Source: Methanococcus voltae PS
GTDB lineage: Archaea > AGJL01 > Methanococci > Methanococcales > Methanococcaceae
Length of the DNA stretch: 37,811 nucleotides
Direction: 5' to 3'
Assembly: GCF_024807035.1 (NCBI RefSeq)
Contig: NZ_JANUCQ010000006.1
Coordinates: 1-37,811, forward strand
Made by a program: the position numbers and the translations under genes. Positions 25,759 through 31,947 of the stretch are shown here, one piece after another (the first letter of the stretch is position 1; each line of letters opens with the position of its first letter). Below the pieces are notes generated by a model that was given only the letters and a program-made list of their open reading frames with translations, was not told the origin of the DNA and made no database searches.

Positions 25759-26982
25759 TTAATTATCTTTTTCAGTAATTAAAACATCTTTTAATTCTTT
25801 AGATAATGTATAATATACATTATAACCATCTCTTTCTTTATATACATACCCCATTTCATAAATATCAGATAAATGAGTACCTATAGTTCCTGGCGAGTTA
25901 TTTAAAACACCTGAAAGTTCTGTAACTGTGGAACTACCTCCTAAATCAGCCATAGCTCTTACAATCTTAGATTGAGCAGGTGTTAAATGATTCAATATCT
26001 GATGACCAACACTTATACCTAACTTTTTTAAAGCGGATTCTACCATTGATTCATCCACAGTTGTTGAACTATTTTTTAAACCAATAGATATTGCCTCAGA
26101 ACAAGTCATTATAATACGTCTTGGGATGCCATCACATTCTTCAATTATCTTTTCAATACTTTCAGGTGTAAATGGATCATATTCTGAAGCTCCACTAGTA
26201 TGTACATCTTCCAAACGCCTTAATATTAAATCATGTGCCTCTGCTTTATCCAAAGGTGGCATATTAATAACTTTAGGGATACGATCTCTTATTGCAGGTG
26301 AAATTTTAGTTAAATCTTCCATCATAGTTGGAGGTCCTGCAAAAAATGCCAATATATCATCTTCATATAAAAATGAGTGGAAAAACTGTAACAATCCCAA
26401 ACAACTTCTTTTTGCAAATTGGTCGGCTTCATCAACTAATATCACACACAATTTACCTTCTTCTTTAACGTTATGTAATAAATATTTTAAATCCCTTTCA
26501 ATTTTTTCACGAGGATAATGTACAGGTGTTTTATCACTATATGTGTTTAAACGTCTGTATATCTCTATTATTTTTTTAGAATGTTCCATATAATTTGTAG
26601 ATAAAGTACCATCTACTGAGAATAAGTTATCTCCAATAATACTATGCATCAATTGAATTAAAAATTGTCTTGCAGTTACTTGAGAAGCTTCCAATTGTAC
26701 AATCCAATGACCATGTCTTTTTGCTGCATAATATAAAATATTCAATATAGAACTTTTACCAATACCTTTAGTCCCCACTATTGCTGCATTAGCTACACTA
26801 CCATATTGAGCTGCACCCAGAATATCTGCTATCTCCGATAATTCAGAATTTCTACCCACAAAAAATTTAGTATTTCCACGTATGGGCTTTTCAGAGAATG
26901 GATTAGATTTTAATTTTAATCTATTCATTGATTTTTTAGATATAGATGATGCATTGTGTATAAATTCTATAGGGTCTATCAT
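25759..26982 (-). CDS. Divergent Orc1/Cdc6-like AAA+ protein with winged helix
   Basis: A 407-residue AAA+ ATPase. The lead-in NPFSEKPIRGNTKFFVGR is of the Orc1/Cdc6 type. Walker A GTKGIGKSS is at 70-78, Walker B ILVDEADQF with D184-E185, candidate arginine finger R232/R234 in AIRDRIPK, and sensor 2 in GIPRRI (285-290). A winged helix closes the protein (about 335-400, SSTVTELSGVLNNSPGTIGTHLSDIYEMGYV). It matches what I recall of M. jannaschii MJ0774, once proposed as a diverged Cdc6 in a lineage without canonical Cdc6. A role in origin recognition is therefore inferred; a transcription-type AAA+ regulator is the alternative. The start follows GGTGATTTT. A promoter with a palindrome lies upstream. 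Confidence 0.75.
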   Translation of the reverse strand: MIDPIEFIHNASSISKKSMNRLKLKSNPFSEKPIRGNTKFFVGRNSELSEIADILGAAQYGSVANAAIVGTKGIGKSSILNILYYAAKRHGHWIVQLEASQVTARQFLIQLMHSIIGDNLFSVDGTLSTNYMEHSKKIIEIYRRLNTYSDKTPVHYPREKIERDLKYLLHNVKEEGKLCVILVDEADQFAKRSCLGLLQFFHSFLYEDDILAFFAGPPTMMEDLTKISPAIRDRIPKVINMPPLDKAEAHDLILRRLEDVHTSGASEYDPFTPESIEKIIEECDGIPRRIIMTCSEAISIGLKNSSTTVDESMVESALKKLGISVGHQILNHLTPAQSKIVRAMADLGGSSTVTELSGVLNNSPGTIGTHLSDIYEMGYVYKERDGYNVYYTLSKELKDVLITEKDN

Positions 26983-27050
26983 AAAATCACCAATACACAA
27001 TATTCATAATTATATTTTCATAAGAATATAATATATAATATCGGATATTT

Positions 27051-27073
27051 TTATATGTTTCGAATTTTCGAAA
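27051..27073 (-). promoter_or_regulatory. Promoter of ORC-like gene with palindromic operator
   Basis: On the minus strand, CGAAACATATAA combines BRE and TATA, with the expected transcript start near 27029 and a leader of about 47 nt. The BRE overlaps a perfect inverted repeat, TTTCGAA (27058-27064) and TTCGAAA (27067-27073) with a 2-nt centre. A dimer bound there would cover the TFB contact, so autoregulation or origin recognition by the AAA+ protein is possible. Confidence 0.5.
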
Positions 27074-27115
27074 GAAATTAATATATTATATAATACAATA
27101 TATACTATATTATAA

Positions 27116-27328
27116 TGTGAATAATAATATAGTTTTATAAAATATTGTGAATATAATGTTTTTTTGTAAAAAACTTAATAAAAATATATTCTTGGTTAAT
27201 AGTATTTATTAAAAATATGTTTAACTATTATATTATTAATATATAATATATTCTTTTAGAATAAAAATAATTTTAATAAGGATATTTAATAAGATTTTAA
27301 AAGAAAAAAATCATAATAAATGTGAATA
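27116..27328 (+). repeat. Three TGTGAATA direct repeats
   Basis: TGTGAATA occurs in the same orientation at 27116-27123, 27146-27153 and 27321-27328 within the candidate origin. The first two are 30 bp apart, close to three helical turns. Each is the main G-containing word in otherwise A/T DNA. Confidence 0.5.
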
Positions 27329-27588
27329 TACTTAATAAATGTAAAAATATACGTAAAATATAATAAAAATAAATAATAAACGTATTTAATTACTTTATAA
27401 TAAATAATAAATATAAATATTAATATAAATAATAAAATAAGCAATAATTTAATAACAATTATCGTAATACTATATTATATATAAATAATAATTTCAATAT
27501 TATGAATTATATCATTAATAAATATACAAACAATATATAATTAAAGAAAATAATATTAAACAGATTTGTAGAATATAAAGGTATAAAT

Positions 27589-28086
27589 ATGGATATAAAA
27601 ACCAGTATTGATAAAAAAATAAATACCAAACAAAGGTATATTTTAATAAAATATTTAATGAACCATAAAAATAGTAGCATATCTAAAATACATGGTGTTA
27701 CAAAATTGTCAAAAGGCTTCGTGTGTCAGTATTTATGCTTATTAAATAGCTTTGGAGTAGTTTATTATAATATGGAAAACAAAACGAAAGTTTATAATAT
27801 AAATAATAAATATATAGATATTTTAGAAGATATTATTAGTAAAAAACAGTATAAATATGAATTAAACATAAAAAACAAAGATTATAATATAAATAATAAA
27901 AATATAAATAGTTTTATTGAAAATACTGATAAATATGGTTCTAAAACGTATAAAATACATTTTAAAAAATATTTAAATGATTATGAAATATATGAATTAC
28001 CTGGCGATGAATATTGGTGTATAACATGTCAATCCAAAAATTGCGAACATATTTTAGAGTTAAAGCTTTTATTAAATGAAAAGTAG
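27589..28086 (+). CDS. Winged-helix protein with SWIM-like zinc motif
   Basis: A 165-residue, lysine- and asparagine-rich protein I do not recognise by name. Residues about 12-75 look like a winged helix (SISKIHGVTKLSKGFVCQYLCLLNSFGVV). After a low-complexity Asn/Lys linker (about 85-115), the C-terminus has C144, C147, C152 and H154 in YWCITCQSKNCEHILEL. The CxH followed by ILEL resembles the end of SWIM zinc fingers, although the first pair is CxxC, not CxC. It is divergent from the ORC-like gene across the candidate origin and converges on the MCM unit, so a DNA-binding role in replication or its control is plausible. The start has AAGGTATAAAT. Confidence 0.65.
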   Translation: MDIKTSIDKKINTKQRYILIKYLMNHKNSSISKIHGVTKLSKGFVCQYLCLLNSFGVVYYNMENKTKVYNINNKYIDILEDIISKKQYKYELNIKNKDYNINNKNINSFIENTDKYGSKTYKIHFKKYLNDYEIYELPGDEYWCITCQSKNCEHILELKLLLNEK

Positions 28087-28476
28087 TTTTCGGGTTTTCT
28101 AAATGCTTATATATATAATACCTATTGAAAATACCATTTAACTTTTTTAAACATTTTGTAATTTTTATTTATTTTAATTAAAGCTCTTATTTTTTAATAT
28201 AATATGTTTTAAAAGGATTATGATGATATTATATACTCTATATATTATATAACATGCTTCCTTGTATTTTAAATCATTTTATTTATATTATGGAGTATTA
28301 TTCATGATTATATATAATATTATATTATATATTATTATTATTTACTATTATAGAGCATATGTATAATAATAATAGAAATAGTTAAAAAATATAATAAAAT
28401 ACACCAAATCACTGAAGGAATTTTAAAATTTTTTAAGTTAGTACTCATACATACATCATATCCGAAAACCCGAAAA
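28087..28476. repeat. 13-nt inverted repeat pair TTTTCGGGTTTTC
   Basis: TTTTCGGGTTTTC at 28087-28099 on the plus strand recurs exactly, inverted, as GAAAACCCGAAAA at 28464-28476. The left copy starts directly after the stop of the SWIM-like gene. Such a G/C run is rare in this A+T-rich intergenic DNA. A related word AGTTTTCGAGTT is at 31875-31886, upstream of MCM. Confidence 0.75.
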
Positions 28477-28542
28477 TTGAAAAACAATATAGCATTCGCT
28501 ATCCTTTTAAAACAGTTGAAAAAGTTTTGTAAAAACCTATTT
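28087..28542. other. Convergent intergenic region with GC-rich inverted repeats
   Basis: A 456-bp stretch between two convergent genes. It is bounded by inverted copies of a 13-mer (28087-28099 and 28464-28476), has a promoter-like TATA run just inside the left copy (TTATATATATAATA, from about 28107), long A/T tracts, and a small hairpin ATAGC-ATTC-GCTAT (28489-28502). A 71-codon frame on the minus strand covers part of it but I do not accept it as a gene. A small RNA or a protein-binding locus is possible. Confidence 0.5.
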
Positions 28543-29580
28543 TCATATTTCATTGTTATATATGGTTTTTCTTAAATATATATCAGTATATAATCTAACA
28601 TAGTTAGTATATTGACTTATTTTATTAAATAATAATTTATTAACCCTTAATTTATATATTATAGATTTTTTAAACTTATTTTTTGTTAGAATACCTAAAT
28701 CACATAATTCACTTAAATATTTATATAATGTGGATTTGGTATATTCAGGTGTTATTTGTAATATATCTTGTATTTTAAACTTTTTTAAGTTATTACATTT
28801 ATTATATAATTCTTTTAATTTATTAGGAATGGTTTGATAAGCTATTTTCTTCCAAGGTATTTTTAAATCTCTTAATGTTTTTAATTCTCGTTTACTGTTT
28901 TTTAATATAATATCTATTGCATCTATATTACCTTTGGATATATTTATGATACGTTCTGCCACTTTACAATTTTTTATTAAAATACCTGAATTTTTAGCAT
29001 AATTTATAACTGAAGCACAGTTGTTTATTTGTGAATCTGGAAAATTATTTTGAATATTTTTTAAATTTTTAAATGGCGTCCTTATTATTACTGTAAAATC
29101 TTCATTTAACCATTTTACAAATCTTTTAAATGAGTGGCTATAATTCCAAGCATATGTATTATTTGTATCAATTACAATCAATGGTTTTATACTTTTGAGT
29201 AAAGTATTTAATTTAAAAATTACCTTTTCAAATTTCTTATTTTTTAAATCTTCAAATATATCTCCAATTACTCTATACCATCCTATTTTAGCTTTATTGT
29301 AATTCTTACCTATCCTGTATTCTTTATTTATATATGTAAATATATTTTGCATATGGTCTACGTCTTTTTTTCCATATGCAAATTTATTAGATATTGAGTT
29401 TAGTATATTACGTATCATTTTAGATACTGATGGACTACCTAATATTCTAATTATCGGGGTTTTATTTATGTAATGGAATTCAAAACAATTATCATATGGT
29501 AAAATTGTTGAATGATTCGCCGGTTGAATCCATAGGCTGCCATTGTCATATGTTTTAGGATAATTTTTTATTAGTTTCAT
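28543..29580 (-). CDS. ORC/Cdc6-like protein with eroded ATPase motifs
   Basis: A 345-residue protein that appears to follow the plan of the neighbouring AAA+ ORC-like protein with its ATPase residues lost. The P-loop position reads RILGSPSVSKM (45-55), without the second glycine and the Ser/Thr. Walker B reads PLIVIDTNNTY (133-143), without the glutamate, and is followed by an aligned FKRFVKWLNEDFTVIIRTP. The sensor 2 position reads KGNIDAID (216-223) without arginine. A winged helix follows at about 270-320 (YTKSTLYKYLSELCDLGILTK). It begins 42 bp after the MCM gene on the same strand with the site CTGGGGTTATT. No frameshift is visible, so it is intact and probably a non-hydrolysing DNA-binding partner. 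Homology is judged by eye. Confidence 0.6.
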   Translation of the reverse strand: MKLIKNYPKTYDNGSLWIQPANHSTILPYDNCFEFHYINKTPIIRILGSPSVSKMIRNILNSISNKFAYGKKDVDHMQNIFTYINKEYRIGKNYNKAKIGWYRVIGDIFEDLKNKKFEKVIFKLNTLLKSIKPLIVIDTNNTYAWNYSHSFKRFVKWLNEDFTVIIRTPFKNLKNIQNNFPDSQINNCASVINYAKNSGILIKNCKVAERIINISKGNIDAIDIILKNSKRELKTLRDLKIPWKKIAYQTIPNKLKELYNKCNNLKKFKIQDILQITPEYTKSTLYKYLSELCDLGILTKNKFKKSIIYKLRVNKLLFNKISQYTNYVRLYTDIYLRKTIYNNEI

Positions 29581-29622
29581 AATAACCCCAGTTTATATTT
29601 AAAATACAAAAATCATGTTTTA

Positions 29623-31668
29623 TTACATAATTCTGTACTTTCTGTTTTTCGGCTCGTATATGTCACCGACTTGCTTTAATTTTTTCAAAGCTATTTTAAC
29701 TTGATTTTCGTCAATAGTTTCCTTATTTGCTCTTTCTACAATATCTTCATAAATTACCAATTCTGTATCTAATTCATTTGAAAGATTTTTTATTATATTA
29801 TATACTGATTTCATATAATTTACATCTTTTTTAGATACTCCTGTTACCTTACCAATATCAAATGAATTAGTTTCTGGGTCATAAGCTATCTCTTTTAAAG
29901 ATTCTGTAATTATATTGATAGCTTCTACTGCATCTAGCTCCTCAACTTCGTCATGAAGTCTTGCTTTGGCATGAGCCTCTGCAATTCTAATTGTAGCTTC
30001 TAATTGTCTAGCAGTAATTTGAACAGAGCTTTTTCTCATGTTTGTATAGTATTCTACAAGAATATTTTCCGCATCTTCTGAAATTATTGGTTTTTTTTGT
30101 CTAGCATATATAATATATTTTATTATAAAATCATTGTCAATTAATACATCATCAATTATTATATTATCTAATTTCATATTTTGTTTTATATTCTTGTCTA
30201 AAAATGCTTTATGTATATTTATAATATGTTTTCCAATTTCTTTATCCCTTGCACGGTCTGGTTCGTCTTTTAAGGGGAATATCAAATCGAATCTACTTAA
30301 CATAGGTGCAGGAATGTTAATCTGTTCAGAAACTGCTTCATTATTATCAAACCTACCCCATTTAGGGTTACAAGCCGCAAGAATACTACATTCTGATGAT
30401 AATTTTGTGTTTATACCACCTTTGTTGATATGTATCGTTTGGCTTTCCATGGCTTCTAAAACATAACTTTGCAAATCCCTATTCACTGTTAACTCATCAA
30501 TACATGCAGTGCCTTTATTTGCTTTAACTAAAAGACCTGGTTTTATAACCCATGTATCGTCGCCTATTTCTGTTTTTTCCCGTACAACTGCAGCAGTTAA
30601 ACCAACACCTGATGCAGTAGTGGCAGAACCGTATACATTACCAGGTATTTCTGCTATTTTCCTTAACATAACTGATTTACCAATACCTGGGTCTGTTATT
30701 AATAAAACATGACTATCGGCTCTTTTACTTCCTTTTTTTACGCCTTTTATCTGTTGTAATAATATGGCTTTTTTAATTGTAGAGTATCCTTTAATTTCAG
30801 GAATTAGTCTTTCGGATAATATATTTATTACATCTTTATTCTTACTTACTCTTTCAATTTTTTCAATATCTTCTTCAGTGAGAATTGCTTCTAATTTATT
30901 ATCTATAATTTCGCAATTTAATCCTTTTACGATTATGTCATATATTGGTATCTTTTTATTCTTTTGAGATTTAACTGGAATCCCTGTTATTTTTACTCGA
31001 CCACAATAAATACCCGGTGAATTTTCCAATAAAACGGTTATATATTTTGGTGGTTCTTCAGGATCTTCCATTAAATCTAAAGGTTGCTGAATTTTTAATT
31101 CCTGATAGTCAATATATTCTGAATTCTCCTCATTTAAATTCATTAATTCTCCACAATTCTTATTACTACACATTGGTTCTATATATCCTTCAAATGGATT
31201 TTCTATATTGGTATTTATAATATTGCCACATTTAGGGCATATAAATTTTGCTTTTTTCAAGGCTGATTTTATTTTTGTAGACACTGTTATTACGCCTTCA
31301 AATTCAACCAATTTTCCTAATTTATTACTTTTAATATCTTCAATAGTAACTGGTTTGTTCTTATTATTTTTATTAATGGATTCTGGTACATGGTATGGTA
31401 CTATATTAATATCTTTTCTAACGGTCTTTAAAGATTCGTATGCATCTAGATAAGCGTCACGAATAATACTTAAGACCTCTTTAGGATTACTTTCCATTAA
31501 ATCTATTTCTTTAAAAAAACCGTTTTTCTGCAAGTCTTCTAAATCGATTAAAACATTATTTTTATCATAAATTATATCATTACTATATTTATATCTAAAA
31601 TAATCTTTCAAATTGCTTTTGTTATTTTTTAAAGACTCTATTTCTTTTGATAGTATTTCTGAATTCAT
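29623..31668 (-). CDS. mcm: Replicative helicase MCM
   Basis: A 681-residue hexameric 3'-5' DNA helicase that unwinds the replication fork. The N-terminal domain carries a zinc site (C144, C147, C167, C172). The AAA+ core has Walker A TDPGIGKS (324-331), Walker B ACIDEL (387-392), sensor 1 ACNPKWGRFD and arginine finger LSRFDL (R458). A C-terminal winged helix ends the protein. Walker A begins with T where most MCMs have G, and the segment after Walker B (LTVNRD) differs from the usual FDKM. Methanococcus genomes may carry several MCMs; a complete one in this core setting is likely the chromosomal helicase. The start follows ACTGGTGAATTA. It is followed by the eroded ORC-like gene. Confidence 0.92.
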   Translation of the reverse strand: MNSEILSKEIESLKNNKSNLKDYFRYKYSNDIIYDKNNVLIDLEDLQKNGFFKEIDLMESNPKEVLSIIRDAYLDAYESLKTVRKDINIVPYHVPESINKNNKNKPVTIEDIKSNKLGKLVEFEGVITVSTKIKSALKKAKFICPKCGNIINTNIENPFEGYIEPMCSNKNCGELMNLNEENSEYIDYQELKIQQPLDLMEDPEEPPKYITVLLENSPGIYCGRVKITGIPVKSQKNKKIPIYDIIVKGLNCEIIDNKLEAILTEEDIEKIERVSKNKDVINILSERLIPEIKGYSTIKKAILLQQIKGVKKGSKRADSHVLLITDPGIGKSVMLRKIAEIPGNVYGSATTASGVGLTAAVVREKTEIGDDTWVIKPGLLVKANKGTACIDELTVNRDLQSYVLEAMESQTIHINKGGINTKLSSECSILAACNPKWGRFDNNEAVSEQINIPAPMLSRFDLIFPLKDEPDRARDKEIGKHIINIHKAFLDKNIKQNMKLDNIIIDDVLIDNDFIIKYIIYARQKKPIISEDAENILVEYYTNMRKSSVQITARQLEATIRIAEAHAKARLHDEVEELDAVEAINIITESLKEIAYDPETNSFDIGKVTGVSKKDVNYMKSVYNIIKNLSNELDTELVIYEDIVERANKETIDENQVKIALKKLKQVGDIYEPKNRKYRIM

Positions 31669-31947
31669 TAATTCACCAGTAATTTATTTTATATAGTAAC
31701 CAACATAGTAATAATTTAAAACTATATATCATCTAAAATAAATCTAATATTTTATTCACATTTATAATTATGTATTTACTAACATAATATATCAATGTAT
31801 TAATTATTAAAAAATAAAATTTATAATTATTAAGATTATATTATAATAGTAATTATATCTTTATTTGACTTTTGAGTTTTCGAGTTATATGCAAGTTGTA
31901 TATTATATTAATAAATTATCTTATTAGTAGGTAATTTTTAGTTAATT

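Follow-up and report, generated by a model that had tools for sequence, protein, structure and literature searches.

A conserved gene block with two repeat arrays in Methanococcus voltae PS as a candidate chromosomal replication origin of the Methanococcales

At which site, and with which proteins, does a methanococcal chromosome begin to replicate? The literature describes the start of replication in the Methanococcales as an intriguing unknown and reports that a Z-curve analysis was inconclusive for Methanococcus maripaludis S2 (PMC3984812). The question is raised anew by a stretch of 37,811 nucleotides from Methanococcus voltae PS (NCBI RefSeq assembly GCF_024807035.1, contig NZ_JANUCQ010000006.1, positions 1 to 37,811; hereafter the window), which comes from a genome of 1,780,593 bases in 12 contigs. 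A first-pass annotation of its sequence had proposed a replication-initiation hub composed of a gene related to those of the origin recognition complex (ORC), an A+T-rich region, a small zinc/helix-turn-helix gene, an eroded ORC-like gene, and an MCM helicase gene, and this layout is present as described. The elements stand in the order ORC-A (minus strand), intergenic region, HTH-Zn (plus), convergent region, ORC-B (minus), and MCM (minus). Judged from the comparisons below, the locus is the best candidate for the chromosomal origin of the order, and it probably comprises that origin together with its initiator genes, with ORC-A as the initiator.

The gene block was followed through 36 Methanococcales genomes, including that of M. 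voltae PS, and five outgroups; many of the regions compared stem from close relatives, and the species names that accompany our genome handles (G numbers) are those we take to apply. Profile searches found ORC-A in 27 of the 36 genomes and ORC-B in 26, all of which also carry ORC-A, and the two genes are separated by a few kb in 25 of these 26. The genome with ORC-A and no ORC-B (G016) has its ORC-A at a contig end. HTH-Zn was detected at this locus in at least 23 Methanococcales by a single-sequence search, a count that results from 25 rows after subtraction of one outgroup and one frame with five stops, and further copies were seen as open frames, for example in loci L112 and L115. The gene for MptA flanks ORC-A in the window and likewise in relatives. 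Because the arrangement is conserved in most of the order, it is not due to chance: ORC-A, HTH-Zn, and ORC-B form a conserved block, which MCM joins in one family. MCM is found within 1.5 kb of ORC-B in all 13 genomes of the window's family (f1) that possess ORC-B, with a gap of 1.4 kb in G017, and beside ORC-B in none of the 13 such genomes of the second family (f2), for which reason MCM was rejected as a core member. Conservation of gene order, proposed earlier as a check, is therefore borne out for the three-gene block and not for MCM. In the window, MCM and ORC-B share a strand, with MCM upstream and 42 bp between the two, an arrangement consistent with a single transcript, while in f2 ORC-B overlaps by a few bases an upstream frame, presumably resembling a tetrapyrrole methylase, in all 11 loci with ORC-B that were read. 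Identities between the window and three congeners are 84-85% for ORC-A, 77-79% for MptA, 65-66% for MCM, 40-43% for ORC-B, and 22-34% for HTH-Zn, and in 15 of 17 pairs compared ORC-A was better conserved than any other block protein.

The intergenic region between ORC-A and HTH-Zn, for which about 10% G+C had been claimed and 11% was measured, harbors in relatives an array of a repeat that we designate motif A (ATyrTGAATcwAA). All 102 sites found with a position weight matrix (PWM) in 23 regions lie on one strand. Five copies occur in 13 of the 23 regions at spacings of 30/31, 155-157, 30/31, and 181-185 bp; the array is incomplete in the other 10, and G009 and G011 show 147 bp instead of 156. 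The spacer between copies 2 and 3 is more alike than shuffled sequences (from 56% versus 49% up to 82% versus 55%). Some region boundaries were set by hand, and a few coding bases are possibly included. The numbers of sites exceed the shuffle means (85 versus 0.88, and 47 versus 0.03); since the PWMs were built on the regions in which the sites were later counted, this excess arises partly by construction, and strand and spacing are taken as the independent evidence. A pattern of three spaced copies gave 23 hits in 18 of the 36 genomes, 20 of them at this locus and three elsewhere, and its reversed control gave two; a plain motif scan yielded two minus-strand hits (G002 and G010). Motif A itself is not new because it is the reverse complement of the Methanococcaceae origin recognition box (ORB) motif of Ori-Finder 2/DoriC, TT[TA][GT]ATTCA[TC][GA]AT..., which the accessible portion of that source presents as a single repeat, with no array spacing, strand rule, or second motif (PMC4164010). 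In the window, copies 1-4 span 205 bp as compared with 216 bp in G005, about one helical turn less. The lineage of the window combines the most diverged HTH-Zn and the most decayed motif A array with an ORC-A that is still 84-85% identical to those of congeners.

A second, separate repeat class, motif B (CTCGAAAACTCGAAAA), accounts for the inverted repeats that the first-pass annotation had noticed in the convergent region. The repeat is real and conserved in relatives, whereas the region (28087-28542, 456 bp) has 18% G+C and is not GC-rich overall. An inverted pair of motif B copies, 346-375 bp apart, was found in 18 of 23 convergent regions as cut, with a spacing of 361-364 bp in most Methanocaldococcus, 346-348 bp in three Methanococcus, and 374 bp in the window. 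Scans of whole loci added pairs in G010, G011, and G013 (356-362 bp); in G004, about 630 bp separate the copies. Seven of 10 such loci (L104, L105, L106, L110, L112, L115, and L118) have a third copy another 163-167 bp along. In 20 of 23 regions, a copy of motif B (score 9.7 or more) also precedes ORC-A, at a distance of 42-110 bp. Of the nine hits with a score of at least 11 in 800 kb of G004, four fall in this locus, and motif A scores above 8 in one convergent region only. Further copies were noticed outside the two arrays. In the window, a weaker one (CTCGAAAACTCAAAAG, 31869-31884, minus strand, score 12.4) precedes the start codon of MCM by about 200 bp, and other weaker copies upstream of MCM in L103 (5305) and L106 (5373) lie inside the end of a CobB-like gene. 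In three Methanocaldococcus loci (L114:6518, L115:13677, and L118:6892), a copy occurs inside a gene two genes from ORC-A, which we take to be ATP-grasp-like; it is about 2.6 kb from the copy at the ORC-A promoter and may be a coding coincidence.

Base composition across the window tracks gene direction, and we therefore used the GC skew at third codon positions (GC3 skew) corrected for gene strand, which was computed for samples covering 20-48% of three genomes. For the single-contig relatives G005 (712 genes) and G004 (694 genes), the samples amounted to about 47%, with the fragment containing the locus added. As the leading strand is usually G-rich, the switch point that gives a G-rich leading strand was chosen as the origin. 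It was placed at 960 kb in G005, 15 kb from ORC-A (975 kb), and at 1,090 kb in G004, 39 kb from ORC-A (1,051 kb), and none of 1000 block flips was as strong in either genome. Bootstraps fell within 100 kb in 70% of cases for G005 and 100% for G004; with a coarser fit, the origin came to lie at 940 kb in G005 and at about 1,000-1,100 kb in G004. The skew at third-position A and T (AT3) in G005 shows about the same axis weakly (R2 up to 0.031, and 0.0235 at the locus, with a null maximum of 0.0224). The skew check suggested by the first-pass annotation, performed here in relatives, thus points to the locus by GC3 skew, with a mixed outcome for AT3 and a negative one for gene orientation, as described below. 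An A+T-rich noncoding region and ORB-type repeats beside an orc gene are found here together, M. infernus being the exception for orc adjacency, and in G005 and G004 an extremum of strand asymmetry is found with them.

ORC-A consists of 407 amino acids from an ATG at 26982 and matches the Pfam families AAA_16 (38.9 bits, cut-off 32.6) and HTH_5 (35.5 bits, cut-off 22). Its Walker A (GTKGIGKS) and Walker B (DEAD) sequences are invariant in all 14 aligned orthologs, as in an active AAA+ ATPase, and the C-terminal winged helix was matched by profile in each of them. All 14 match the curated orc1/cdc6 profile TIGR02928 at E 0.001 or better; the score of the window protein is 32.4 bits against a cut-off of 181.3. 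Not one of the 36 Methanococcales genomes reaches that cut-off, versus all five outgroups. A structure model of low confidence (predicted local distance difference test, pLDDT, 57) was compared with human ORC chain 7jpp_E (Z 12.4, root mean square deviation 13.4, 226 residues aligned), Cdc6 1fnn_A (Z 10.9, 9.1, 228), and TnsC 9g0f_A (Z 11.0, 3.2, 164), so that ORC subunits, archaeal Orc/Cdc6, and TnsC all stand at a similar Z to it. The divergent Cdc6-like protein already known from the Methanococcales is almost certainly identical with ORC-A. Highly divergent orc genes of the order are cited in a review, and according to one genome survey M. maripaludis has a protein related to the putative initiator of M. 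jannaschii.

ORC-B (345 amino acids) matches no Pfam family at E 0.1 in the case of the window protein. The P-loop position reads GSPSVSK in the window and mostly xTPxxKKT in relatives, with the glycines lost, and the second acid of Walker B is absent in the 16 aligned members, which confirms the claimed loss of ATPase residues. Weak profile matches among the members include Hda_lid (5/16) and Cdc6_C (2/16), and there is no classical P-loop family among the 25 of 39 Pfam families that were listed, save Terminase_5 (two members, E 0.05). The ORC-B model (pLDDT 76) shows an AAA+-like core followed by a lid and a winged helix. Foldseek ranked Apaf-1 first (E 9.5e-5), followed by the ORC chains 7jgr_B (5.2e-4) and 2v1u_A (2.0e-3), all at a TM score of about 0.2, and among the hits of the ORC-B profile was the ORC-A of G031 (E 1.5e-4). 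Searches of PDB sequences with ORC-A and ORC-B gave nothing informative beyond winged helices. From these weak signals, i.e., lid and winged-helix profiles and the fold ranking, it is plausible that ORC-B is an ATPase-dead ORC-type protein. The idea of an initiation system with an active and an inactive ORC-like subunit is sustained insofar as ATPase-competent and ATPase-dead genes co-occur in 26 of 26 genomes with ORC-B, whereas MCM belongs to it in one family and the signals for the ORC type of ORC-B are weak. In one Methanocaldococcaceae metagenome-assembled genome, ORC-B is broken by a TAG (L089:7322-8239, on the same contig as G034:C5), which may be an assembly error or gene decay.

HTH-Zn gave weak winged-helix matches, and its W-C-x2-C-x4-C-x-H motif is invariant in all 20 aligned members. 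The SWIM part of the earlier designation "winged-helix/SWIM-like" finds no support: the first pair is CxxC rather than CxC (CxxC-x4-CxH, as compared with what we take to be the SWIM motif, CxC-xn-CxH), and between them the 20 members match 21 Pfam families at E 0.1, of which SWIM is not one. The window was also scanned for Rfam families and tRNA genes, and none was detected.

Features of the candidate origin locus, with positions counted from the first nucleotide of the window
Feature	Position	Strand	Description
ORC-A	25759-26982	-	AAA+ ATPase, Orc1/Cdc6-like but divergent, carrying an ArsR-type winged helix; candidate for the active initiator
A+T-rich intergenic region	26983-27588	.	Candidate origin core; 606 bp, 11% G+C; site of the motif A array in relatives
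Motif B, ORC-A-proximal	27057-27072	-	TTCGAAAATTCGAAAC; upstream of ORC-A, overlaps palindrome TTTCGAATTTTCGAAA at 27058-27073
Motif A copy 1	27114-27128	+	AATGTGAATAATAAT, degenerate; PWM score 5.7
Motif A copy 2	27144-27158	+	ATTGTGAATATAATG; 30 bp after copy 1
Motif A copy 4	27319-27333	+	AATGTGAATATACTT; assigned by distance to copy 5
Motif A copy 5	27499-27513	+	ATTATGAATTATATC; degenerate candidate that differs from RTGAAYNWA at one position and scores below the PWM threshold; 180 bp after copy 4
HTH-Zn	27589-28086	+	Winged-helix protein with C-terminal W-C-x2-C-x4-C-x-H zinc motif
Motif B copy B1	28087-28102	-	TTAGAAAACCCGAAAA; directly after the HTH-Zn stop codon
Motif B copy B2	28461-28476	+	TCCGAAAACCCGAAAA; inverted to B1, 374 bp away
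ORC-B	28543-29580	-	AAA+-like; Walker A/B eroded, lid helices and a winged helix present; candidate for an inactive subunit of ORC type
MCM helicase	29623-31668	-	Same strand as and upstream of ORC-B; block member in the family of the window only

If the locus is the origin, the ATPase-competent ORC-A would act as the initiator on the A+T-rich region between its own gene and HTH-Zn, where motif A, the ORB-like element of the order, would flank with up to five same-strand copies an A+T core open to unwinding. ORC-B, predicted to be ATPase-dead, and HTH-Zn might be DNA-binding partners that recognize motif B at the ORC-A promoter as well as between the two convergent genes, and they may help to build or regulate the initiation complex. 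MCM would be loaded at the locus; in one family it shares an apparent operon with ORC-B. Several observations weigh against this reading. In the genome that we take to be M. infernus (G025), ORC-B and HTH-Zn remain together while ORC-A is found about 190 kb away. The strict three-copy pattern of motif A has no hit in nine of the 27 genomes with ORC-A, and the array of the window itself is partly decayed, with copies 1, 2, and 4, a weak copy 5, and an unrecognizable copy 3. The window ORC-A scores higher with TIGR03015, presumably an ExeA-like model, than with the orc1/cdc6 profile (46.5 bits, far below the cut-off of that model). For ORC-B, winged-helix proteins fill the best 50 rows of the VIA-align comparison with no ORC chain among them, an absence from which no exclusion follows, and a comparison of the ORC-A and ORC-B profiles aligned the winged helix alone (probability 37%, E 3.5e-4). 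As for the skew, it was drawn from relatives, the genome of the window being in 12 contigs; there are two switch points, and the call at ORC-A depends on the rule of the G-rich leading strand; the 5-95% bootstrap interval in G005 (840-960 kb) ends just short of ORC-A, with the terminus poorly placed; and the AT3 skew at the locus in G004 (0.011) is inside the null. Gene orientation, which we rejected as an origin signal, had its best fits away from the locus, which ranked 118th of 602 in G005 and 31st of 609 in G004.

The M. infernus exception also bears on an alternative explanation, which takes the repeats for transcriptional operators: motifs A and B would be the sites of an autoregulating transcription factor, HTH-Zn or ORC-B, and the origin would be elsewhere. 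In that genome, both arrays stay with HTH-Zn and ORC-B, motif A keeping its usual spacing beside HTH-Zn, and ORC-A has moved: its locus (L111) contains neither motif at the thresholds of the whole-locus scan, and its upstream region was excluded from the motif set. Retention of the arrays by HTH-Zn rather than ORC-A is what an operator would lead one to expect, as are the position of motif A between two divergent genes, the motif B copy shortly upstream of ORC-A, and the resemblance of HTH-Zn to ArsR-type regulators in four of 20 members. However, it would be unusual for an operator to have five copies at conserved spacings across about 400 bp, or an array such as that of motif B between convergent genes, neither of which has a promoter there, and the skew points to the locus in two genomes. 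We therefore regard the operator explanation as unlikely.

The reading of the locus as an origin becomes bolder when the genomes that have no block are considered. Eight genomes of genus g2, whose named records are Methanothermococcus, have neither ORC-A nor ORC-B by profile searches, and HTH-Zn was not found in them by one single-sequence search, apart from a spurious frame in G019. Each of the eight keeps another MCM, none of which is a block MCM, given that ORC-A, ORC-B, and HTH-Zn are absent. A four-copy motif A pattern with up to three mismatches, which by design misses arrays spaced at 31 bp, hits the block-bearing g2 genomes G010, G013, and G017 (with one stray hit in G013) and none of the eight. 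In the MptA tree, G007, G012, G014, G015, G018, and G020 form one group with 100/99 support, G019 is placed beside the block-bearing G017, and G021 has no MptA hit. From this grouping, a single loss of the block in a six-genome clade is likely, with G019 and G021 not counted; the incomplete genomes G019 (81% complete), G021 (54%), and G035 (81%, 270 contigs) were left out of the claim. In G007, a single contig of 1,504,113 bp, the flanks of the block persist in unchanged order, as five neighbors from one side and a single gene from the other, set apart by about 7.4 kb of other genes, and MptA is located elsewhere. The GC3 skew of G007, computed from 254 genes, is weak (p 0.023) and puts the origin near 720 kb, with an interval of 410-1,215 kb, so an origin of another kind may exist in it. 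The MCM that the block-less clade keeps is another full-length one (in G007 a frame of about 720 amino acids at G007:C1:1475380). In M. maripaludis, MMP0030 has been reported as the sole essential MCM (PMC3984812). By gene numbering, MMP0030 is presumably the block MCM, and helicase use may have switched in the block-less clade. Replication without Cdc6 and an origin has a precedent in Thermococcus kodakarensis, where the gene and the predicted origin are present and dispensable, according to the accessible text (PMC5663688), whereas the genes and the array here were apparently lost naturally. Only tentatively, and with more doubt than belief, do we propose the full scheme, in which two ORC-type proteins and a zinc winged-helix protein form a complex on a bipartite origin and one clade of six genomes has lost all of it, replicating without an ORC-type initiator by recombination or by some initiator yet to be described.

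Another possibility derives ORC-B and HTH-Zn from an ancient integrated element that would have brought in MCM and an Orc-like protein; as its remnants, they would play no part in the initiation of chromosomal replication. Their fast divergence would fit, as identities between the window and species beyond its closest relatives are 37-43% for ORC-B and 22-34% for HTH-Zn versus 69-85% for ORC-A, and so would the match of the block MCM to a phage helicase family and the link made in the literature between extra MCMs of the order and mobile elements. We consider this very unlikely because, of the 27 genomes that carry ORC-A, 26 retain ORC-B and at least 23 retain HTH-Zn, with one gene order, and because no relatives of ORC-A or ORC-B were found in viral contigs and none of ORC-B in plasmids, HTH-Zn not being searched there. 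It is highly improbable that the locus is a centromere-like segregation site near the origin, with HTH-Zn or ORC-B binding the repeats as its array, since the block has no ParA/SegA-type ATPase and ORC-A and, in one family, MCM point to initiation, even though archaeal plasmid partition employs regular repeat arrays with small winged-helix proteins and centromere-binding winged-helix proteins (AspA, pNOB8) appear, as a generic domain match, in the fold list of ORC-B.

The origin of Methanocaldococcus jannaschii, oriC1, was reportedly predicted by Zhang and Zhang in 2004 beside the Cdc6-like ORF MJ0774. Its interval, which we take to be 694,540-695,226, ends one base before ORC-A (695,227) in G028, presumably M. 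jannaschii, so the predicted oriC1 is the same intergenic region in a relative. To our knowledge, that proposal contained no ORC-B, HTH-Zn, five-repeat geometry, motif B array, or block-less clade. The oriC prediction and motif A are therefore already known, and the opinion of the first-pass annotation that origin recognition in the order had yet to be settled is overstated, given a Cdc6-like gene with an adjacent predicted oriC in M. jannaschii and a family repeat in Ori-Finder 2. What is new is the three-gene block, the geometry of two arrays, the M. infernus split, the block-less clade, and the skew position in two relatives; the first four have no mention in the accessible open-licence literature that was searched, and subscription papers may hold some of them. 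The locus resembles the Orc1/Cdc6 origins of other archaeal orders in having an orc gene beside A+T-rich DNA with repeats. It differs in that all repeats face in the same direction, the score of ORC-A falls far short of the family cut-off, and an ATPase-dead second protein and a zinc winged-helix protein are built in. Motif A is also without the TCCA-GAAAC core common to five other groups, as given in the accessible part of the source (PMC4164010).

For the Methanococcales, these findings turn the search for the start of replication into one for named proteins and for DNA sites of conserved spacing, together with a skew signal in two relatives of the genus Methanococcus, all of them directly testable in the genetically tractable M. 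maripaludis. The block-less clade, in turn, would serve as a natural knock-out for the question of whether an archaeon can dispense with ORC-type initiation.

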